Positions 1 to 14,823 of a DNA stretch of 14,891 bases are shown piece after piece. The stretch's first letter is position 1; every line of letters starts with the position of its first letter. The DNA is from Asaia bogorensis (GTDB lineage Bacteria; Pseudomonadota; Alphaproteobacteria; Acetobacterales; Acetobacteraceae). The notes under the pieces were generated by a model, which had not been told where the DNA came from, searched no databases, and worked only from the letters and a program-made list of their open reading frames with translations. The DNA is taken from assembly GCA_945874515.1 (NCBI GenBank), contig CAMCHA010000011.1, positions 1 through 14,891 of the forward strand, read 5' to 3'. A program made the translations under genes and the position numbers.

Positions 1-122
1 GCAGCGACGCGCGAAAGGCACGGGCGACGACGGAGGGGGCGAGCGCGACTTTGTGGATCCAGCGGTTCCCGGGCTTTGGCCGCCGGCGGCCCAGCAAGTG
101 CTAGGCCGCCGGCGCGCCAGGC
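1..122. other. Left-edge segment with no assignable gene
   Basis: GC-rich sequence between the window edge and the pit stop codon. One plus-strand frame is open from the edge to a TAG at 102-104 (34 codons, ending in residues PSKC). It could be the tail of a convergent gene, but it shows no recognisable motif, and other frames are equally open in such GC-rich DNA. Apart from the hairpin at 81-114, I can support nothing here. Confidence 0.3.
81..114 (-). terminator. Strong hairpin just after pit, possible terminator without U-tract
   Basis: Inverted repeat 8 nt downstream of the pit stop. Arms 81-91 and 104-114 are perfectly complementary over 11 bp (CGCCGGCGGCC against GGCCGCCGGCG). In the pit transcript, a U-G wobble (103/92) and three more pairs (100-102 with 93-95) close it onto a 4-nt loop, giving about 15 bp. 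The wobble pairs only in the minus-strand RNA (it is C/A on the other strand), which fits a role in the pit message. No T-run follows, so it is either a non-canonical terminator or a 3'-end-stabilising stem. Confidence 0.5.
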
Positions 123-5592: not shown

Positions 5593-6414
5593 ATGGCCGA
5601 TCTCCCTACTGATCCGCTGTCTAAGGTATGGAACCCCGATGATCGCATCGGCGACATGCTCAAGGGAAAGCGCGGGCTGATCGTTGGGGTTGCCAATGAC
5701 AGTTCAATCGCCTTCGGCTGCGCCGCCAAGTTGCGCGCCTTCGGTGCTGAACTCGCGGTAACATGGCTGAATGAAAAGGCGGAGCGTTTTGTCCGCCCGC
5801 TCGCGGAGCAATTGCAATCCTCCATCATGATGCCGCTCGATGTCGAAGAACCGGGTGCGCTTGAGTCGGTTTTCGCGCGCATCGAAAATCAATGGGGCAA
5901 ACTTGACTTCGTGATCCACTCCATCGCCTTCGCGCCGCGTGAGGATCTTCATGGCCGTGTGGTTGATTGCTCGGCAGAAGGTTTTACCCAAGCGATGCGC
6001 GTTTCCGCATGGTCCTTCCTGCGCATGGCCAAGCTTGCGGAACCGCTGATGAAAGATGGCGGCGTATTGATCACCATGAGCTATTACGGCGCCGACAAGG
6101 TGGTCGGGAATTACAACATGATGGGCCCGGTTAAGGCCGCGCTTGAAGCTTCGGTGCGTTATGCCGCCGCTGAACTTGGCCCAAGGCATATTCGTGTCTT
6201 TGCTGTTTCACCCGGTCCTCTCAGGACCCGTGCCGCAAGCGGCATCGCCCATTTCGATGAGTTGGTGGATATGGCGCAATCCCGCGCACCGGCGCAGCGC
6301 CTGGTGGACATCGCGGAAGTTGGGCGCGTCGTTGCCTTTCTTGTCGGAGGCGCTTCATCCGGCATGACGGGCGATACGATCTATGTTGATGGTGGTTTGC
6401 ATATCATGGCCTGA
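5593..6414 (+). CDS. fabI: Enoyl-[acyl-carrier-protein] reductase (NADH), FabI type
   Basis: A 273-residue cytosolic short-chain-dehydrogenase-fold enzyme that reduces trans-2-enoyl-ACP (or a short enoyl-CoA) to the acyl form in fatty-acid elongation. The nucleotide-binding segment [15 protein letters not shown] (28-42) and the loop [14 protein letters not shown] (109-122) are FabI-specific. The catalytic pattern Tyr164, Tyr174 and Lys181 reproduces E. coli Tyr146-Tyr156-Lys163 spacing exactly. The C-terminus has the usual GDTIYVDGG motif. Length is normal for the family (about 260-275). The ATG has GAGAGG (5582-5587) five bases upstream. It is first in a plus-strand operon; the next gene starts 11 nt after its stop. 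Its place beside acyltransferase, AckA and CoA-transferase genes suggests an accessory FabI for short-chain metabolism rather than the housekeeping copy, but that is inference. Confidence 0.93.
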
Positions 6415-6425
6415 AGGGGCAAGCG

Positions 6426-7082
6426 ATGCACAGAAAGGCTATCTCCGCCGCTGAGGCTGCGGCGCTGATTACTGACGGATCAAGCGTGATGTTCGGCGGC
6501 TTCATGGGGGTGGGTACACCGACCCGCATTGTGGATGCGCTGGTCGCGCGTGGCGCCAGGGACCTGACCATCATCGGCAATGACACGGCAAGGCCTGGAG
6601 TTGCGATCGGCAAGCTGATTGATGCCGGCTGTGTCGCGAAATGCATCGTCAGCCATATCGGCACCAACCCCGTCACCCAGAAGAAAATGATCGCGGGCGA
6701 GATCGAGGTGGATTTGGTGCCGCAAGGTACCCTGGCGGAGCGCATTCGCGCTGCTGGGGCAGGGCTCGGCGGTGTTCTCACGCCAACTGGCGTTGGCACC
6801 AGGGTGGATGAAGGCAAGCGGGTGATAGAGATCGAAGGCCAAAGCTTCCTTCTGGAGACGGCCTTGCCTGCTGATGTCGCGATCATCCTGGCGCATGAGG
6901 CCGATTACAATTTCAACCTGACTTACAGGCTGACCGCGACCAATTTCAACCCAGTCATGGCGCTGGCCGCCAAGCTGGTGATTGCCGAAGCTGGCGAGAT
7001 CGTGCCTGTCGGTGTTATACCCCCGGATGCCGTTCGCACACCTGGCATCTTGGTCACACATCTTGTGGAGCGGCCGCGATGA
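6426..7082 (+). CDS. atoD: Acetoacetate/3-oxoacid CoA-transferase, alpha subunit
   Basis: A 218-residue alpha subunit of a two-subunit CoA-transferase that moves CoA between acetyl- or butyryl-CoA and acetoacetate or related short acids. Clear AtoD-type segments are [16 protein letters not shown] (24-39), SHIGTNP (76-82), [11 protein letters not shown] (98-108), [15 protein letters not shown] (111-125) and [13 protein letters not shown] (164-176). Length matches E. coli AtoD (220). GAAGGGG (6413-6419) precedes the ATG by six bases and overlaps the fabI stop, so the genes are co-transcribed. Its stop overlaps the beta-subunit start by ATGA, which suits equal synthesis of the two chains. The substrate could equally be butyrate or succinate/acetoacetate (SCOT); the resemblance is closest to AtoD. 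Confidence 0.9.
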
Positions 7083-7741
7083 GCATGGAAGCCAAGGAAA
7101 TCATCGCGCGCCGCGTGGCGCTTGAATTGCGCGACAATACCCTGGTCAATCTTGGCATAGGCTTGCCGACCCTGGTGGCGCGCTATATCCCCGCGGGCAT
7201 CAGGGTTCATTTCCAAAGCGAAAACGGGATCATCGGCTTTGGTGCGCCACCGCCCGAAGGCATGGAAGACCCCAACCTGACCGATGCCGGCGGCGGCTTC
7301 ATTTCCGCCATGCCGGGCGCGGCATCCTTCGACAGCGCCATGAGCTTCATGCTGATCCGCGGTGGGCATCTGGACATGACTGTGCTTGGCGGGTTGCAGG
7401 TGAATGCGCGGGGGCAGCTCGCGAATTGGATGGTGCCCGGCAAGCTTGTGCCGGGCATGGGCGGTGCCATGGACCTGGTTGCCGGTGCGCGCCGCGTGGT
7501 GGTGGCGATGCAGCACGTCGCCAAGGGCGAAAGCAAGATCGTACCTGAATTGACGCTTCCGCCCACTGCGGCAAGACCCGTGACACTGGTAGTGACGGAC
7601 CTCGCGGTGCTGGAACCATCAGCGCAAGGCCTGATCCTGAAGGAACGCGCGCCGGGCGTCAGCGTTGAAGCGGTCCGCGCCGCAACCGCTGCGCCGCTGA
7701 TCATCCACGGAGACGTGCCTGAAATGGCGCTCACGCCCTGA
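7079..7741 (+). CDS. atoA: Acetoacetate/3-oxoacid CoA-transferase, beta subunit
   Basis: A 220-residue beta subunit carrying the catalytic glutamate of the CoA-transferase: QSENG at 46-50 gives Glu48, which forms the glutamyl-CoA intermediate in this family. Other AtoA-type segments are [14 protein letters not shown] (23-36), [11 protein letters not shown] (about 80-90), GGLQVN (102-107) and [16 protein letters not shown] (about 118-133). The start overlaps the atoD stop by 4 bp (ATGA), indicating translational coupling; TGGAG lies about nine bases upstream. A second ATG two codons later is a weaker alternative. With AtoD it would turn acetoacetate plus acetyl-CoA into acetoacetyl-CoA plus acetate, feeding acetate to the acyltransferase and kinase encoded downstream. 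Confidence 0.92.
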
Positions 7742-7757
7742 AAGACGGAGAACCCCC

Positions 7758-9185
7758 ATGCCGCCTTCCGATCTGATCGGCCATGGCTATGATGATCTTT
7801 CCATCGGCCAGACCGCAAGCCTTGAACGCATCTGCAAGGATAATGATCTTATTGTCTTCGCCCATGCTTCCGGCAATCTCAATCCACGGCATTTGCCGGG
7901 GCTCGCCGAAAAAGTGACTGGCGAAAAGCCGGTCGCACCTGCCATGTGGGGCGGTTCGCTTTTCTCTGCGCTGCTTGGCAATGTCCTGCCGGGGCCGGGC
8001 ACGGCCTATCTTCAGCAGACGCTTAATTTTCACAATCGGGTTTATCCGGGTGATGTGCTGACCGCGACAGTCACAGTGCGCGACAAGCGACCAGATCGCC
8101 GTGTGGATCTTGAATGTCGGCTTACCCGCAATGACGGTACCCTAATTGCTGATGGCGTGGCTGAGGTGAAGGCGCCGGCCATGAGCCTCAGGGCCGATGA
8201 CATCACCCTGCCAAGCCTTGCGCTACAAAAACGCGGTAAGATTGAACGCCTGCTCGCTGCGTGCGACGGCGTGCCCCCAATGCCGACCGCTGTCGTGGCG
8301 CCGACTGACCGAAACTCCCTTGGCGGCGCCTGGGAGGCAACGAAGGCCAGGCTGATCGAACCAATCCTGATCGGGCCGGAATCGCAAATCCGCGCAGTCG
8401 CAGCAGAAATCGGCTGGGATCTTGCCGATATACGCATCCTGGCAACACACGATGACCATGCCGCGGCCGCGCGCGCTGTCGCGCTGATTCACGAAGGCAG
8501 TGCAGCCGCTGTGATGAAGGGCAATATCCATTCCGATGAAGTGCTGAAGCATGTCACGAAGGGCGATGGGGGCCTGCGCGCCGGGCGGCGGATCAGCCAC
8601 GTTTTTGTCCTGGATGTTCCGGGCCGAGAAGGACCATTGCTGATTACCGATGCCGCCATCAATATCGCGCCTGACCTTATGACCAAGGCCGATATTATCC
8701 AGAATGCCATTGACCTGGCGCGCGCGATCGGCCTTGACCAGCCGCGTGTCGCCATTCTCTCCGCAGTGGAAACGGTCAATCCGGCCATACCCTCATCGCT
8801 GGATGCCGCCATCCTCTCCAAAATGGCCGAGCGTGGACAGATTAAGGGCGGCATTGTGGATGGTCCGCTCGCCATGGATAATGCCGTTGATATTGGAGCG
8901 GCGAAAACCAAGGGTATCGCTGGAATGGTTGCCGGCCATGCGGATGTGCTGGTTGTTCCCAATCTTGAAGCCGGCAATATGCTGGCGAAGCAACTTGTGT
9001 TTATGTCAGATGCCGATACGGGTGGCCTGGTTGTCGGTGCCAAGGCGCCGGTGATGTTGACCAGCCGCGCCGATGATGAGGATGCGCGGCTGATGTCGGC
9101 TGCATTGGCGGTGCTCTACAGCCATTGGATGCGTACCGGAAAGTGTCTGGCTTCCGCATGGCCAGTCCAAGTGACCGGGGCTTAA
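7758..9185 (+). CDS. MaoC-like hydratase / phosphate acetyl(butyryl)transferase fusion
   Basis: A 475-residue two-domain protein. Residues about 10-145 form a MaoC/PhaJ-like hotdog domain, with FAHASGNLNPRHL (34-46), MWGG and LPGPGTAYLQQTLNF. Residues about 155-465 form a phosphate acyltransferase (PTA/PTB) domain, with VMKGNIHSDEVLKHV, ITDAAINIAPDL and DGPLAMDNAVD motifs. The second half interconverts acyl-CoA plus phosphate with acyl-phosphate plus CoA. The first half is named enoyl-CoA hydratase in related fusions. Here the position of the catalytic Asp of the Asp-x4-His dyad is Asn40, while His45 is kept, and the usual HG before the MW motif is AP. Hydration may therefore be lost or changed. 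GGAG (7747-7750) lies seven bases before the ATG. It sits 16 nt after atoA and upstream of ackA, its functional partner. Confidence 0.9.
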   Translation: MPPSDLIGHGYDDLSIGQTASLERICKDNDLIVFAHASGNLNPRHLPGLAEKVTGEKPVAPAMWGGSLFSALLGNVLPGPGTAYLQQTLNFHNRVYPGDVLTATVTVRDKRPDRRVDLECRLTRNDGTLIADGVAEVKAPAMSLRADDITLPSLALQKRGKIERLLAACDGVPPMPTAVVAPTDRNSLGGAWEATKARLIEPILIGPESQIRAVAAEIGWDLADIRILATHDDHAAAARAVALIHEGSAAAVMKGNIHSDEVLKHVTKGDGGLRAGRRISHVFVLDVPGREGPLLITDAAINIAPDLMTKADIIQNAIDLARAIGLDQPRVAILSAVETVNPAIPSSLDAAILSKMAERGQIKGGIVDGPLAMDNAVDIGAAKTKGIAGMVAGHADVLVVPNLEAGNMLAKQLVFMSDADTGGLVVGAKAPVMLTSRADDEDARLMSAALAVLYSHWMRTGKCLASAWPVQVTGA

Positions 9186-9201: not shown

Positions 9202-9242
9202 GCTTGCCTCCTTCGGGCGGGCCACACGCCACAAATGCAAGC
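9202..9242 (+). repeat. Inverted repeat before ackA start
   Basis: GCTTGC (9202-9207) and GCAAGC (9237-9242) are perfect 6-bp complements around a 29-nt loop in the 69-nt gap before ackA. The right arm ends immediately before the ATG at 9243 and three bases before the weak ribosome site. It could lower ribosome access, but a long loop and short arms make chance likely. Confidence 0.25.
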
Positions 9243-9254
9243 ATGGGGTACTTC

Positions 9255-10481
9255 ATGAACGGCATTATCATGGTCCTGAATGCGGGGTCGTCTTCCCTGA
9301 AATTCGCCACTTATGAAGCCGCGGGCGCTGCACTCGCGCAGCTTCATGCCGGGCAGGTTGAGGGCATCGGCGCGACGCCGCATTTCGTGGCCCGGGATTC
9401 CAATGGCCTGAAAATCGCCGATGAGCTTTGGCCAGATGGCGGCGCACCAGCTGATCATGCCGCGGCGCTTAACGTCATCATCACCTGGCTGGAAGACCGG
9501 CTACCTGCCCCGGTTGTGGCCATCGGGCATCGTGTGGTGCATGGCGGGCCGGATTTTTCGGCACCCATACTGATTGATCTTGGTGCCATGGCGGAATTGC
9601 AGGCGCTTGTTCCGCTTGCACCACTGCATCAGCCGCATAATCTAGCCGGCATTACTGCCGCCGCGAAACGCTTTCGGGGTGTGCCGCAGGTTGCCTGTTT
9701 TGATACGGCGTTTCACCGCACGCAGCCCTTTGTCGCCGATACCTATGGCCTACCGCCTCAGTATCACGCGCAGGGTATCCGCCGCTTTGGCTTTCATGGC
9801 CTGTCTTATGAATACATCGCCGGGCGCATCGCCGCCGAGGACCCTGCCCTTGCCAAGGGCCGCCTTGTTGTTGCACATCTTGGCAATGGCTCATCGCTTT
9901 GCGCCATCGCCAATGGCCGCGCCCAGGCCAGCAGCATGGGTTTTACAGCGGTGGATGGTGTTCCCATGGGCACGCGCTGCGGCCAGCTTGATCCCGGTGT
10001 TGTGCTTCATCTTCTTGACAGCCTGGGCATGACAACCGCCGAAGTCACCCGGCTGATCTACAGCAATAGCGGTCTCAAGGGCATGTCAGGCATTTCGCAT
10101 GATGTGCGCGAAATTGAGGCCGCCGGAACTGCCGCTGCCGAAGGCGCGCTTGACTATTTCGCCTATCGCGTCCGGCGCGAAATCGCGTCACTTGCAGCCG
10201 CCATGGGCGGGATTGACGCTTTGATCTTCACGGCAGGCATTGGCGAAAATGCGCGCGCACTCCGTGCACGGATTTGCGAAGGGCTTGGCTTTCTCGGCAT
10301 TGCTCTGAACCCAGCGCTGAACAGCGCCAATGCCCCGGAGATCGCATCGGCAGATGCGAAGCTTCGCGTTCTGGTCCGCCGCACCGATGAGGAACGCATG
10401 ATCGCGGAACATACAATGGCAGTCGCCCTTGGCGGCCAGGACGTGTCGTATCGCCCGGCGTCCCAATCGGATGATGCGTGA
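9255..10481 (+). CDS. ackA: Acetate kinase family (acetate/propionate/butyrate kinase)
   Basis: A 408-residue cytosolic kinase interconverting ATP plus a short carboxylate with ADP plus acyl-phosphate. Family motifs run in order: VLNAGSSSLKF near the N-terminus, GHRVVHGG, ACFDTAFH, RRFGFHGLSYEYI, VAHLGNGSSLCAI, PMGTRCGQLDPG, GLKGMSGISHDVREI and IFTAGIGENA. I chose the ATG at 9255 because a weak GGGG lies 6-9 bases upstream and only 8 residues precede the NAGSSS motif, as in AckA proteins. ATGs at 9243 and 9270 and an upstream TTG at 9204 are in frame alternatives. It lies 69 nt after the phosphate acyltransferase gene; the pair makes a full acyl-CoA/acyl-phosphate/carboxylate shunt. Substrate chain length cannot be read from sequence. 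Confidence 0.93.
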   Translation: MNGIIMVLNAGSSSLKFATYEAAGAALAQLHAGQVEGIGATPHFVARDSNGLKIADELWPDGGAPADHAAALNVIITWLEDRLPAPVVAIGHRVVHGGPDFSAPILIDLGAMAELQALVPLAPLHQPHNLAGITAAAKRFRGVPQVACFDTAFHRTQPFVADTYGLPPQYHAQGIRRFGFHGLSYEYIAGRIAAEDPALAKGRLVVAHLGNGSSLCAIANGRAQASSMGFTAVDGVPMGTRCGQLDPGVVLHLLDSLGMTTAEVTRLIYSNSGLKGMSGISHDVREIEAAGTAAAEGALDYFAYRVRREIASLAAAMGGIDALIFTAGIGENARALRARICEGLGFLGIALNPALNSANAPEIASADAKLRVLVRRTDEERMIAEHTMAVALGGQDVSYRPASQSDDA

Positions 10482-10546: not shown

Positions 10547-11410
10547 ATGACTGATCAGAAGCTGCTTGTGACACTTGCGGCACTTGAAGCCTTTCTCCTA
10601 GCGCGTCGGCAGGGGCCGCCAGATCTGGACGCAGCAGTGCAAGCGGCCATGGTGAAACTCCACGGCGATGCCGTACCTCACGCAATCGCGACCGCCGGCC
10701 ACGCGATTGCCCAGGCTGTTGAGGCCCATGGCGCCACTTTCCCGCCCGGAACCGAGCCCGCTTATCACGACCGGCATCACCAGGCTGAAGCGATCCTTGC
10801 TGCAGGCTGGCTTGGGACCGCTGCGGTGGATGCTGGCTTGATGTCCAGGTGCGCGGCGACATTGCTTATCCTTGCCATGGCGGGCCATGACCTGCTGCAT
10901 GACGGCACGCTCGGCGATACGGCAGGCGCGCTCGAAAGGCGTTCGGCGCTGCGCACAGATGCGCTGATCACCTTTCTTCCTACAACTGACAGGGTAGAAA
11001 TTTCGCGCCTCATCATGGCCACGACGCCTGAGGTGGAGGTGGGCGACCTGCCAGCAAGGCTCGCCCGCGAGGCGGATCTCTTCGCGAGCTTGACCCCAGG
11101 GCTTGGTTGGCGCCTCAGCCTTGCCCTGGCGGCGGAGATGGCGGCTGCTGGACTGCCGGGGGCCGATGCTATCGCCAGCCATGCCGGTCGCCTTGCCCTG
11201 CTGAAGCGCCTGCCCGAAATGACGCCTCCCGCCCAGACACTTGGTCTGGCTGCGGCACGCGCGGTGCAATTGGCCGCACTATGTCGCGCCGGCGGGGATA
11301 GCTGCGCCGAAACTGCCGCCGCAAATCTTGATGCCATGCCGTCAGAGGAGAATGCGCGCCTTTGGCACGCGGCACTGATCGCCCTTGGCTGGCCGGACCC
11401 CACCGCGTGA
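10547..11410 (+). CDS. HD-type protein resembling class I cyclic-nucleotide phosphodiesterases
   Basis: A 287-residue, probably cytosolic, helical protein. Metal-site motifs follow the order of class I (PDEase_I) enzymes: YHDRHH (73-78, His74), GHDLLHDGT (113-121, His114-Asp115, His118), LERR (129-132, where class I has LExHH) and READLFASLTP (175-184, Asp177, where class I has ADxSxP). This gives the His/His/Asp/Asp set that binds two metals. The protein is shorter than eukaryotic class I domains (about 330), and the substrate-specifying Gln is not identifiable. Predicted role, by inference: hydrolysis of a cyclic nucleotide, probably the one made by the cyclase whose GTG start overlaps its stop by 4 bp. 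No ribosome site is visible before the ATG; hairpins at 10471-10527 precede it. A generic HD hydrolase is the alternative. Confidence 0.7.
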   Translation: MTDQKLLVTLAALEAFLLARRQGPPDLDAAVQAAMVKLHGDAVPHAIATAGHAIAQAVEAHGATFPPGTEPAYHDRHHQAEAILAAGWLGTAAVDAGLMSRCAATLLILAMAGHDLLHDGTLGDTAGALERRSALRTDALITFLPTTDRVEISRLIMATTPEVEVGDLPARLAREADLFASLTPGLGWRLSLALAAEMAAAGLPGADAIASHAGRLALLKRLPEMTPPAQTLGLAAARAVQLAALCRAGGDSCAETAAANLDAMPSEENARLWHAALIALGWPDPTA

Positions 11411-13605
11411 CACGCCCTTTACGCGTCAGCTTTGCCATTACCATCCTGACGGCCTTCACTATTGTATTCGTCCTTGCCCTTGGGGCTGTGGTGCTTGCAT
11501 ATCGGCAAACAGGGGCACGCGCTGCGCTGGCCGCGGCAGAGCGGAGCCTGGCGCAAGCGGCCGATACGGCAGCAGCAAGCACGCGCGCCCTGATCAGACC
11601 AGTCATGGCGCTATCCGCTGTTTTGCCTGAATTCGCGCCTCTCACTGAGGGTCTCAATCCAGCCGCGAGCGATACCGCCGCCATGCTTGCGTTGCTGATC
11701 CATGAACCCGCCATTCAAATTATATCGGTAGGCCTGCCGGATGGCACATTGCGCCAGGTGATGCGCGTCGGGGCCTTGGCGAAGGAATATGCCGATGGCG
11801 CACCTGCACAAAGCGCCTTTGCGCTGCGTGAGATTCTGCATGGACAGACAAGCGAGAATTGGCATTTCCTTGATGCCGGATTGCAGCCCCTTGGTATGCT
11901 TGGGCGCGCAGCACGAAGCTTCACACCACGCCAGACGCAATGGTATTTGCAGGCGAGTGATGCCGCGGTGCATGTCTCCACGCTTTATGATCTCCCGCTG
12001 CTCGGTCGGCCCGGCATTTCGGTAAGCCGTCGCGTGCCTGGCTCTGGCGCTGTTGTAGCGTTGGACATGACGCTTGAAGGGCTGGTGGAATTCCTGGCCC
12101 GTCTGCGGACCACGCCGTCGAGTGTGCTTTTCCTTTTCACCCAGGACGGCATCATGATGGCGCATCAGCGGCCAGAGCTTGCCGTGCAACGCCTGGCGGA
12201 TGGCCGCACCGCCTGGACAACGCTCATGGCCAGCCCCGATCCGCTCATTCAAACGATTTGGCGGGAATATGCGCAAGGCGCGCTGCGTGTTGGGCAGACG
12301 ACGCAACTTTTGCCCGACGCAAGGCTTGTTTCAAGACTTGATTCGAGACTGGGGGCACACCGCGGCGCTGACCCGATGATACCAGCACCGACGGAAACCA
12401 TGCTGGTACGGCTTGAATCGGTTGCGGAACTCGCGGGGCCCAGTATGCTCGTTGCTGTGGCAGCCCCAATTGCCGATTTTACGCGACCCTTGGATATGGC
12501 TTTGAGTGAGGGCACGACCTGGGCGTTTTTCGCTTTGCTGCTTGGCCTTGGAGGCATCGGTGTGCTTGCGTGGCGTATATCACGCCCCTTGTCGCAATTG
12601 GCAAGAGAAGCAGATGCGATTGCGCGCCTTGATCTTGCTGCCCCCATCCACGTGCACAGCCACATCACGGAAATCGCACGACTGGCCAGCACCATGGATG
12701 GCATGAAATCAGCACTGCGCGTTTTTGGCGCTTATGTGCCGCGCAGCCTTGTGGCCAAGCTGATGGCTGAGGGTGATGCCGCAAAGCTGGGCGGCACGCG
12801 GCGCAGCATCAGTGTCATGTTCAGCGATGTCGAAGGCTTCACGACCCTGGCTGAAGACCTTCCGCCTGAGGAGCTTATGCACATTGCTTCCGCCTATTTC
12901 GAGGATCTCACGGTAGAATTGCTGCGCTGCCAAGCAACGATTGACAAATATATTGGTGATGCCGTGATGGCGCTTTGGAATGCGCCGCAGGATGATCTTT
13001 CCCATGCCAGTAATGCCTGTGAGGCAGCGCTGCGCGCGCGGCTATTGACCGAGAGGTTGTGCGAGCGATTTGCCGCGCGAGGTTGGCCCCGGCTGCATAC
13101 CCGATTTGGCGTCCATACCGGAGACGCCATCGTGGGAAATGTCGGCTCATCTGATCGCATGTCCTATACAGCGATTGGCAGCATGGTGAACCTTGCCTCG
13201 CGATTGGAGGGCATGAATAAGGCCTATGGATCCCAGATCCTGATTTCCGAAGCGACACGACGCGCGGCCGGCCATGTCTTCGTGAGCCGGCCGGTTGATC
13301 TGGTACTCGTGAAGGGTTCCGCTCAGCCGGTTGAGCTGCATGAATTGCTCGGCTATCTCATTGTGGATCGTCCCGAGGATACGCCCTTGGTTGCTCACCC
13401 CCGCCTGGTTGCCGGGCTGGCTGCTTGGCAAAAGATGATCAATGCTTATCGTGCCGGGCAGTTTGACACAGCATCGGCGGCGCTTGCCGATGCCGATCTG
13501 CCGCCAGATGATCATCTCGGCCGGCTCTATGCCGAACGCATCAGCGCCCTGCGCGCGGGTGCTCCCAAGGACTGGACACCCGTGACCCGCGCGATGATAA
13601 AATAA
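11407..13605 (+). CDS. Membrane-bound class III adenylate cyclase with sensor and HAMP domains
   Basis: A 732-residue inner-membrane cyclase expected to make cAMP. TM1 (about 8-31), a periplasmic region (about 32-365) resembling a Cache-type sensor, TM2 (about 372-390), HAMP (about 390-445), cyclase domain (about 465-640) and a helical tail. Metal Asp474 (FSDVEGF) and Asp518 (DKYIGDAVM) are present. Lys514 and Thr588 form the adenine-selecting pair typical of class IIIb cyclases, and Asn595 and Arg599 are the transition-state residues at the expected spacing. In the usual GDTVNLASR stretch the Asp is Ser, not a known catalytic position. I prefer the GTG at 11407, which overlaps the preceding stop (GTGA) and places TM1 at the N-terminus; a TTG at 11362 would add 15 polar residues. 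No ribosome site is visible, so translation is probably coupled to the phosphodiesterase-like gene. Confidence 0.9.
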   Translation: MTRPLRVSFAITILTAFTIVFVLALGAVVLAYRQTGARAALAAAERSLAQAADTAAASTRALIRPVMALSAVLPEFAPLTEGLNPAASDTAAMLALLIHEPAIQIISVGLPDGTLRQVMRVGALAKEYADGAPAQSAFALREILHGQTSENWHFLDAGLQPLGMLGRAARSFTPRQTQWYLQASDAAVHVSTLYDLPLLGRPGISVSRRVPGSGAVVALDMTLEGLVEFLARLRTTPSSVLFLFTQDGIMMAHQRPELAVQRLADGRTAWTTLMASPDPLIQTIWREYAQGALRVGQTTQLLPDARLVSRLDSRLGAHRGADPMIPAPTETMLVRLESVAELAGPSMLVAVAAPIADFTRPLDMALSEGTTWAFFALLLGLGGIGVLAWRISRPLSQLAREADAIARLDLAAPIHVHSHITEIARLASTMDGMKSALRVFGAYVPRSLVAKLMAEGDAAKLGGTRRSISVMFSDVEGFTTLAEDLPPEELMHIASAYFEDLTVELLRCQATIDKYIGDAVMALWNAPQDDLSHASNACEAALRARLLTERLCERFAARGWPRLHTRFGVHTGDAIVGNVGSSDRMSYTAIGSMVNLASRLEGMNKAYGSQILISEATRRAAGHVFVSRPVDLVLVKGSAQPVELHELLGYLIVDRPEDTPLVAHPRLVAGLAAWQKMINAYRAGQFDTASAALADADLPPDDHLGRLYAERISALRAGAPKDWTPVTRAMIK

Positions 13606-13609
13606 TCTG

Positions 13610-14641
13610 ATGACAGGGCCAGAACCACCGACAAGGAAGCGCATCAAACTTGCTTTGCAAGGCGGCGGCGCCCATGGCGCCTTCACCTGGGGTGTGCTTG
13701 ATCGGCTGCTGCGCGACCCGCGTCTTGAGGTTGAAGGCATTGTCGGGACGAGCGCCGGGGCGATGAATACCGCGCTGGTGGCGGATGGTTTGGCGGCAGG
13801 CGGGCCTGATCTTGCACGCCGCATGCTGACCGAATTTTGGAGCGGCGTAGGGAAGATGGCGGCAGCCGCGCCAGTTCAGCCCACGTCAATCGATCGGCTT
13901 TCCTCGCCAGGGACCATGCGCTTTTCACCGCTCTGGATGGCAACCGATGCGATGTTCAAGCTTTTCTCGCCCTATCAGCTCAATCCGCTCAACCAGAACC
14001 CTCTCCGGCAATTGCTGGAGGATCTGGTTGACTTTTCGCGCCTTCGCAAGGCCGAGCGGCCAGCGGCCTTTGTCTGTGCAACTAATGTTCTGAACGGACG
14101 TCTTAAGGTTTTTGCTCGTCATGAAATGAGTGCGGCGGCGGTCATGGCCTCCGGCTGTCTGCCACAGCTGTTTCAAGCGGTTGAGGTGGATGGAGAACAT
14201 TATTGGGATGGCGGTTATTCCGGAAATCCACCTATTTTTCCACTGATCTACATGGGCGGATGCCCGGATATCATCATCGTTCAGCTCAATCCCATCAATA
14301 TCCCGGCGGTGCCACGCGACATGCGGGCGATCATGGATCGCATCAATACGCTCGCCTTCAATTCATCATTGATGCGGGAAATGCGGATGATCCATTTCGT
14401 CACCCAGTTGATTGATCGCGGTGATCTTGACGGGGGGAAGTATCTGCGGCTTTTCATTCATTGCATTGATGCCGAGGAACAGCTCGCGGGACTCGACCCA
14501 TCCTCAAAGCTCAATGCTGCGCCGGGTTTTTTGGCTCATCTTTTTGACCTTGGGGTCGCCCAAGCTGAGGCGTTTCTCACCTCACATTTTGATGCCATCG
14601 GAGTTGCATCATCTACGGATATAGAGGCGAAGTTTTGTTGA
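13610..14641 (+). CDS. Patatin-like phospholipase family protein
   Basis: A 343-residue serine hydrolase of the patatin family, expected to cleave acyl esters of lipids (or possibly polyhydroxyalkanoate-related esters). The oxyanion loop LQGGGAHGAF (16-25), nucleophile elbow GTSAG (46-50, Ser48) and DGG (Asp200 in YWDGGYSGNPP) give the full Ser-Asp dyad. No signal peptide or membrane segment is visible, and there is no obvious cyclic-nucleotide-binding domain; about 110 residues after the core are unassigned. It starts 4 nt after the cyclase stop with no clear ribosome site, so it is co-transcribed and probably translated by reinitiation. Patatin-like proteins of this size are often found near 3-hydroxybutyrate genes in alphaproteobacteria, which would fit the upstream short-chain acyl genes; the substrate remains unknown. 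Confidence 0.88.
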   Translation: MTGPEPPTRKRIKLALQGGGAHGAFTWGVLDRLLRDPRLEVEGIVGTSAGAMNTALVADGLAAGGPDLARRMLTEFWSGVGKMAAAAPVQPTSIDRLSSPGTMRFSPLWMATDAMFKLFSPYQLNPLNQNPLRQLLEDLVDFSRLRKAERPAAFVCATNVLNGRLKVFARHEMSAAAVMASGCLPQLFQAVEVDGEHYWDGGYSGNPPIFPLIYMGGCPDIIIVQLNPINIPAVPRDMRAIMDRINTLAFNSSLMREMRMIHFVTQLIDRGDLDGGKYLRLFIHCIDAEEQLAGLDPSSKLNAAPGFLAHLFDLGVAQAEAFLTSHFDAIGVASSTDIEAKFC

Positions 14642-14823
14642 CCTTGCCCTTTCCGCTAAGTAGTGCAACAAAATTGTCATTGATATACCTGCTTCCAAAA
14701 CCACGAATTGTTGAATAAACTTAAAATCGAGAGCGAGTGGGCGTCACGCGGCTACCAAGTCGGATAGGCGGCGCTTTAATCTCAGCTTGAGGTGCTTTTT
14801 TGAGATGAAGAAGGAGTAAGAAC
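14642..14823 (+). promoter_or_regulatory. AT-rich leader of the last gene
   Basis: A 182-bp gap after the patatin gene, AT-rich around 14661-14730, so probably a promoter region; TAAAAT (14722-14727) could be a -10, but no matching -35 is at the right distance. ATCTCA (14779-14784) and TGAGAT (14801-14806) form a 6-bp inverted repeat with a 16-nt loop just before the ribosome site AAGGAG (14811-14816). No clear terminator for the patatin gene is visible. Confidence 0.4.

Follow-up and report, generated by a model that had tools for sequence, protein, structure and literature searches.

A class-I-phosphodiesterase-like gene overlapping a membrane adenylyl cyclase gene in Acetobacteraceae: a probable cAMP eraser and maker on one message

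In this work we have analysed computationally a contig of 14,891 nucleotides (CAMCHA010000011.1 of assembly GCA_945874515.1, labelled Asaia bogorensis; the whole stretch is called here the window), in which a gene for a 287-residue HD-type protein resembling the class I cyclic-nucleotide phosphodiesterases (PDEs) is followed by genes for a membrane adenylyl cyclase and a patatin-like phospholipase (Table 1). The window is contig 11 of a genome (G000) of 2.59 Mb, in 404 contigs and 79% complete. A first-pass annotation, made from the sequence alone, had described the first two open reading frames as coupled through a GTGA overlap, and both the frames and the overlap are borne out: the GTG of the cyclase, which is read in a different frame, overlaps the TGA of the PDE-like gene. 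We propose, with a probability of about 0.72, that the first gene codes for a soluble two-metal PDE of class I fold that hydrolyses the cyclic adenosine monophosphate (cAMP) made by the cyclase of the next gene, maker and eraser being coupled on one message by the overlap.

Table 1. Features of the PDE-like, cyclase and patatin region of the window
Feature	Positions	Strand	Basis
Class-I-PDE-like HD gene, 287 residues, ATG start	10547..11410	+	Open reading frame; no family match over cut-off; AlphaFold2 model and structure matches
Y73-H74-x3-H78 motif: His74 predicted proton donor, His78 predicted metal ligand	10763..10780	+	Conservation; PDE4/PDE7 alignment
H114-D115-L-L-H118 motif, predicted metal pocket	10886..10900	+	Conservation
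Glu130, predicted metal-pocket Glu	10934..10936	+	Conservation; eight-residue list in the accessible text of PMC5617230
Asp177, predicted last metal ligand, EADLF motif	11075..11077	+	Conservation; motif likeness
GTGA overlap of PDE-like stop and cyclase start	11407..11410	+	GTG 11407-11409, TGA 11408-11410
Membrane adenylyl cyclase gene, 732 residues from GTG 11407	11407..13605	+	Pfam; orthologues
N-terminal membrane helix and predicted extracytoplasmic dCache-type sensor, residues ~9-354	11431..12468	+	Model; Foldseek
HAMP linker, residues 386-438	12562..12720	+	Pfam
Class III cyclase catalytic domain, residues 467-638	12805..13320	+	Pfam; alignments
Patatin-like phospholipase gene, third of conserved block	13610..14641	+	Pfam Patatin 8.9e-24
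Terminator-like hairpin and T run 3' of patatin gene, possible transcript end	14770..14796	+	Consensus match only

A homologue search with the 287-residue protein returned at least 132 relatives (database clusters) at E 1e-3 or better, most of them unnamed or "hypothetical", and our conservation counts are made over 142 family proteins, the window protein included. The first-pass annotation had pointed to the layout His74/His114-Asp115/Asp177; all four residues are present, and the class I pattern is completed by His78, His118 and Glu130, which it had missed. The invariant columns in 60 aligned members include Y73, H74, H78, H114, D115, H118, E130, T159 and D177. Over the whole family the Y73/H74/H78 motif is kept in 140/142 proteins, the remaining two having gaps at 73-78, while H114, D115, H118, E130 and D177 are each found in 142/142, and the same residues recur in 9/9 other aligned proteins, namely the sisters from genomes G222 and G228 and seven outgroup proteins. 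Shuffling the residues of the window protein 200,000 times, with composition kept, produced the pattern YHxxxH-(25..60)-HDxxH once. Y73-H74-x3-H78 aligns with YHNxxHAAD of PDE4 and PDE7, and the spacing of 40 residues between His74 and His114, present in 132/142 family proteins, is also that of 119/120 PDE4 proteins. The accessible text of PMC5617230 lists eight conserved metal-pocket residues of the class I PDEs, and the family matches seven of them, in order and type. In PDE4B the zinc ligands are His238, His274, Asp275 and Asp392 (PMC13095499, accessible text); by spacing, the first three correspond to the putative ligands H78, H114 and D115 of the window protein, and D177 is likely to be the fourth. 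Since a mixed MAFFT alignment put the Asp ligand of PDE4D in the wrong place, the equation of Asp177 with the PDE Asp rests on the likeness between EADLF and CADLS and on the bacterial outgroups. These residues suggest that the PDE-like protein binds metal.

The AlphaFold2 model of the protein has a predicted local distance difference test score (pLDDT) of 96.8. In structure searches with Foldseek and VIA all of the best 50 matches of each program were class I PDEs, whose entries are very numerous in the Protein Data Bank (PDB), and the predicted match spans the whole catalytic domain (about 16 helices), beyond the HD core. The H...HD...D metal motif of the HD superfamily is present in the helical fold, as judged from the model and from conservation, and for one relative, P0122, a PF00233 annotation had been precomputed.

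Several results weigh against this assignment. The Foldseek TM-scores are moderate (0.34-0.56 by query length, over the best 50 matches), and the window protein has no family match over cut-off in Pfam, PDEase_I (PF00233) included, or in NCBIfam. PDEase_I matches 18/60 members weakly (best 0.0021), and the generic Pfam HD family matches 3/60 (best 6.4e-4). The full PROSITE pattern PS00126, as given in the accessible text of PMC5617230, is found in 0/142 family proteins, its first half being present in 141/142, and it is complete in 120/120 PDE4 control proteins. Against a narrow, PDE4-only profile hhalign gave a weak result (54 columns, probability 4.6%), and two of six PDE4 proteins matched the family profile, at 0.009 and 0.02. 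The eighth pocket residue, a His three positions after the Glu, is Ser133 in 141/142 proteins, and the purine-binding Gln is not assignable: positions 230 and 231 are variable and placing by helix position is ambiguous. Q241 is kept in 142/142 proteins, but it lies where the helix lengths depart from those of PDEs, and it is a candidate purine Gln only. Single-sequence searches of PDB chains, Pfam, NCBIfam and PHROGs with the 287-residue protein gave nothing useful, and there was no bridge family among the matches listed in a second database search, with the family profile as query. Genome-wide, Pfam PDEase_I is a poor detector of these proteins, with 1/59 relatives and 1/398 genomes of the phylum over cut-off and the window protein missed. 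The difficulty in placing the Gln weighs less, because its loss is tolerated in CAPE, where it is replaced by Asn or Thr and the Marchantia enzyme (Thr) is reported to be active and cAMP-specific (PMC8115329, accessible text). The class I resemblance pointed out in the first-pass annotation stands for the predicted fold, over the whole catalytic domain, and for seven of the eight pocket residues, and not for PS00126 or the Pfam cut-off. Because PS00126, the Pfam cut-off and the PDE4 profile fall short and the purine Gln is not assignable, we say that the protein, judged from its residues and its model, appears to work like a class I PDE rather than that it is a strict member, formal PDEase_I membership being only partly established.

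Some of these results would also suit another substrate. On this reading the PDE-fold HD hydrolase would cleave something other than cAMP, be it a different cyclic nucleotide, a nucleotide monophosphate or a phosphoester derived from lipid, and its co-transcription with the cyclase would have some other cause; the second half of PS00126 is missing in 142/142 proteins, Ser stands in place of the pocket His, the purine Gln cannot be placed, no family match of any member is better than that to Pfam HD, and one member was named "predicted metal-dependent HD superfamily phosphohydrolase" by JGI. However, it is the class I PDE fold as a whole that is predicted, and not the HD core alone, and the Marchantia CAPE enzyme is reported to be cAMP-specific with Thr at the Gln position. 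We regard a non-cAMP substrate as unlikely, and return to it below with the gene pairing.

The first-pass statement that the downstream cyclase has all its catalytic residues holds: D474, K514, D518, T588, N595 and R599 are invariant in 10 long-type aligned cyclases and, by eye, are also kept in all 15 aligned cyclases. We take these residues to be the two metal Asp, the Lys/Thr substrate pair and the Asn/Arg; the combination of Lys and Thr marks the adenylyl type among class IIIb cyclases. Pfam finds Guanylate_cyc (2.8e-17) and HAMP (3.6e-9), and among solved structures the catalytic domains closest in sequence belong to the adenylyl cyclases 2w01, 6fht and CyaB 3r5g, so that the gene is predicted to code for a class III adenylyl cyclase with a complete active site. 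The sensor part models as dCache-like, in a model that is reliable for this part only (mean pLDDT 69.8, 10 sequences); its Foldseek matches are chemoreceptor ligand-binding domains, many of them for amino acids, and Pfam dCache_1 reaches only 0.044, below cut-off. Ten of the 15 cyclases are long (698-732 residues) and five are short (399-410 residues), without the sensor region. The cyclases of about 400 residues in L022, L025, L026, L027 and L031 have no dCache region, and their overlap with the PDE-like gene is kept. Two cyclic-nucleotide-binding proteins encoded in the genome are possible receivers of cAMP.

The overlap of the PDE-like and cyclase genes is conserved more than expected by chance. 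Of 21 distinct genomes whose junction could be read, 20 have an in-frame start at -4, as ATGA in 15 and as GTGA in 5; these 20 comprise the window, 13 loci from named records and six other genomes. The frame-broken L034 is excluded from the count, and L032 hardly differs from the window. The exception is the named locus L028, where the junction reads TGATG and the start is at -1. The -4 codon is probably the start actually used, other in-frame starts lying nearby in most genomes. The cyclase-patatin junction is also tight and less exact: among 17 distinct loci with a listed candidate start, four include -4 and 13 have +3 to +7, so that the fixed -4 of the first junction stands out only slightly against it. 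These data are consistent with translational coupling of the PDE-like and cyclase genes. Pairing and overlap would also fit a two-subunit complex, in which the PDE fold would sense cAMP or attach to the cyclase to regulate it, hydrolysis being secondary or absent; the PDE-like partner is constant, as such a regulator might be, across cyclases that differ in their sensor part (10 long, 5 short). Nevertheless, conservation of the predicted metal-ligand and proton-donor residues across the 142 family proteins is unexpected for a dead enzyme, and we consider this regulatory role improbable.

Relatives in named records come nearly all from Roseomonas-type Acetobacteraceae, and the order PDE-like gene, cyclase, patatin is found in 15/16 named loci; in the sixteenth (L030) the contig ends 205 bases past the first gene. 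Within the genus, 18/35 genomes have the PDE-like gene, and the cyclase adjoins it in 16 of these 18, the other two being cut by contig ends. The same 18 genomes have a cyclase orthologue (E 2e-125 or better) and a patatin orthologue (at least 67% identity). None of the 17 genus genomes without the PDE-like gene has a cyclase orthologue at E 1e-40, and none has the patatin orthologue, 16 having only paralogues at 46-47% identity and one having none. Fifteen of the 17 show no class III cyclase, while G005 and G007 have one each. The counts of 18 and 17 are not of independent events, the genus genomes being related and some of them incomplete, and this weakens their force. Over 299 genomes of the order, 23 have a PDE-like match, in seven genera of one family; seven of the 23 belong to genera other than that of the window, four of them with the trio (L159-L162). 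G150 (Elioraea), also outside the genus, has all three genes in the same order, frame-broken, and the last two, G222 and G228, have a more divergent PDE-like gene. In Elioraea thermophila (L158, about 5657-8289; L034) the PDE-like, cyclase and patatin genes are all frame-broken with their order intact, which might reflect joint decay of the module, or else a poor assembly at this place. The pairing that the first-pass annotation had suggested surveying is found in relatives: the cyclase follows in every uncut locus examined except those of the sister-subfamily genomes G222 and G228, and in the genus the genes are present or absent jointly.

The patatin gene of the same conserved block was not mentioned in the first-pass annotation, and it may be an output of the module or a mere neighbour. 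In two other families a class III cyclase stands beside a related patatin gene with no PDE-like gene (L133:2784-5535 in G048 and L134:2029-5849 in G041), which raises the possibility that cyclase and patatin were linked before the PDE-like gene joined them. The trio recalls Pycsar and CBASS, which have a defence function and use a cCMP/cUMP or CD-NTase signal. In a defence module of this kind the cyclase signal would activate the patatin phospholipase and the PDE would reset it; PADLOC matches the cyclase to PycC (best 6.7e-31) and the patatin to phospholipase effector models (best 3.5e-8), and the patatin orthologue occurs in 18/18 genomes with the PDE-like gene and 0/17 without. On the other side, PycC models may match class III cyclases generally and the PADLOC matches are probably general homology, PADLOC has no match for the PDE-like protein, the three-gene order is constant on chromosomal contigs of many genera, and a dCache-HAMP architecture points to a chemical ligand as the signal sensed. 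Viral contigs also yielded no close relative of the PDE-like protein, and we judge a defence role very improbable. A phage origin of the gene was dropped on the same search, which finds close relatives only.

Beyond this branch the pairing is not seen in the stretches examined, and this counts against a common link with cAMP. In the sisters G222 and G228 there is no cyclase or patatin gene within 3.3-5.7 kb on each side (10-11 kb fetched), although both genomes have class III cyclases elsewhere. Still more distant PDE-like relatives occur in 9/240 genomes of the class; eight of these nine neighbourhoods were searched and hold no cyclase, that of G744 being cut by a contig end downstream of the gene, and in the ninth genome, G364, the class III cyclases are at positions other than that of the PDE-like gene. 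A class III cyclase is present in 6/9 of these genomes and none in 3/9. The pairing marks one branch and not the whole group, and because G222 and G228 are unpaired and three of nine genomes have no class III cyclase, the broader group is not tied to cAMP. The unpaired sisters and the three outgroup genomes without class III cyclases also favour the non-cAMP hydrolase set out above, to which the partnership with an adenylyl-type cyclase, present and absent jointly, is opposed. Two of the nine genomes are small and incomplete (1.2-1.4 Mb), with one cyclase each. L135 and L148-L155 code for uncharacterised alphaproteobacterial PDE-like proteins, and 5/7 of those scanned pass the Pfam PDEase_I cut-off. 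In G790 (L149:6634-9963) an open frame of 1109 residues carries two PDE-like stretches and a C-terminal UPF0167 domain.

For the paired branch we favour the proposal of a cAMP eraser made together with its cyclase. The product of the first gene would be a soluble phosphodiesterase with two metals and a class I (PDEase_I) catalytic fold, and its substrate would be the 3',5'-cAMP that the membrane cyclase encoded downstream produces. Ribosomes ending the PDE would re-start on the overlapping GTG, so that synthesis of eraser and maker is coupled. The cyclase may sense an extracytoplasmic small ligand through its dCache and HAMP regions, and the co-made PDE would keep basal cAMP low and its turnover quick, so that only a stimulated cyclase raises cAMP. 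The shared cAMP substrate of cyclase and PDE-like protein, already proposed in the first-pass annotation together with a fixed ratio and a localised signal as possible consequences, this signalling outcome and any cAMP role for the patatin are inferred.

How does this pair compare with known systems? With the class I PDEs (PF00233; PDE4, PDE7, PDE10) the family has in common the predicted whole-domain fold, the YHxxxH and HDxxH motifs at a 40-residue spacing and the pocket Glu and Asp. Unlike them, the window protein is bacterial, has about 290 residues and carries no regulatory domains, and the family lacks the N/Q of PS00126, the eighth pocket residue His (Ser instead), a match over the Pfam cut-off and an identified purine Gln. 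The other alphaproteobacterial PDE-like proteins (of G364, G055, G744, G850, G913 and others) are profile homologues with the same metal-pocket residues, but they are longer, unpaired in the stretches examined, and have Q241 in 1/7 aligned. Among dCache-HAMP class III adenylyl cyclases, complete catalytic residues and the K/T pair are common, and what sets this locus apart is only the regular presence of a PDE-like partner and the neighbouring patatin gene. The bacterial class III cAMP PDEs CpdA and Rv0805 have a fold unrelated to that of the class I PDEs. They share the presumed cAMP-removing role, and their metallophosphoesterase motifs are unrelated (PMC4320098, accessible text). The closest known arrangement is a plant fusion, the CAPE of streptophytes, with a class I PDE N-terminal and a class III cyclase C-terminal in one membrane protein (PMC8115329, accessible text). 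The enzyme pair and its order are the same, a membrane protein is involved in both, and in CAPE the purine Gln is also replaced; in contrast, we have here two bacterial frames with a 4-base overlap and a dCache-sensor cyclase, and no evidence of common descent with CAPE. Hydrolysis of cAMP by an HD protein has itself a precedent: among the YpgQ-like HD proteins (BDPDE1 of Brachypodium and bacterial orthologues) the plant protein is reported to hydrolyse cAMP. These share the HD motif with class I PDEs, but are set apart by their description as a generic HD fold modelled on template 3DTO (PMC8431786, accessible text).

In the accessible texts, class I PDEs are placed in eukaryotes (PMC8115329), or mainly in eukaryotes with class III enzymes in bacteria (PMC4320098), and a literature search, with most subscription papers outside its reach, turned up no bacterial class I PDE described as coupled to a cyclase. 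We tentatively put forward, at somewhat less than even odds, that the family is an unrecognised bacterial lineage of the class I PDE fold, of which the cyclase-coupled branch acts as a maker-eraser cassette and could represent the sort of bacterial stock that gave rise to the eukaryotic enzymes, and that the CAPE-like pairing arose independently in bacteria and plants. If true, this would provide a small soluble class I model enzyme without regulatory domains, a test of purine-pocket function without the usual signature, a natural cassette for making and erasing cAMP, a lead on the origin of eukaryotic PDEs, and a name for a protein family of at least 132 mostly unnamed or hypothetical clusters.

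Some observations concern the surroundings of the module. Terminator-like matches in the region number three, against a shuffle mean of 4.3, and are not above chance. Proteins of L032, a public record titled Asaia bogorensis, are 97-99% identical to those of the window, whereas the other relatives are mostly Roseomonas-type, and the species label of that metagenome-assembled genome is doubtful. Acetate kinase and phosphotransacetylase were considered as module members and rejected, because in the Neoroseomonas loci the acetate kinase gene ends about 2.5 kb away. In the window, a phosphotransacetylase gene with an N-terminal MaoC-like stretch (just below the Pfam cut-off) lies at 7758-9185, followed by the acetate kinase gene at 9204-10481 and preceded by genes for CoA-transferase subunits and an enoyl-ACP reductase-like protein.

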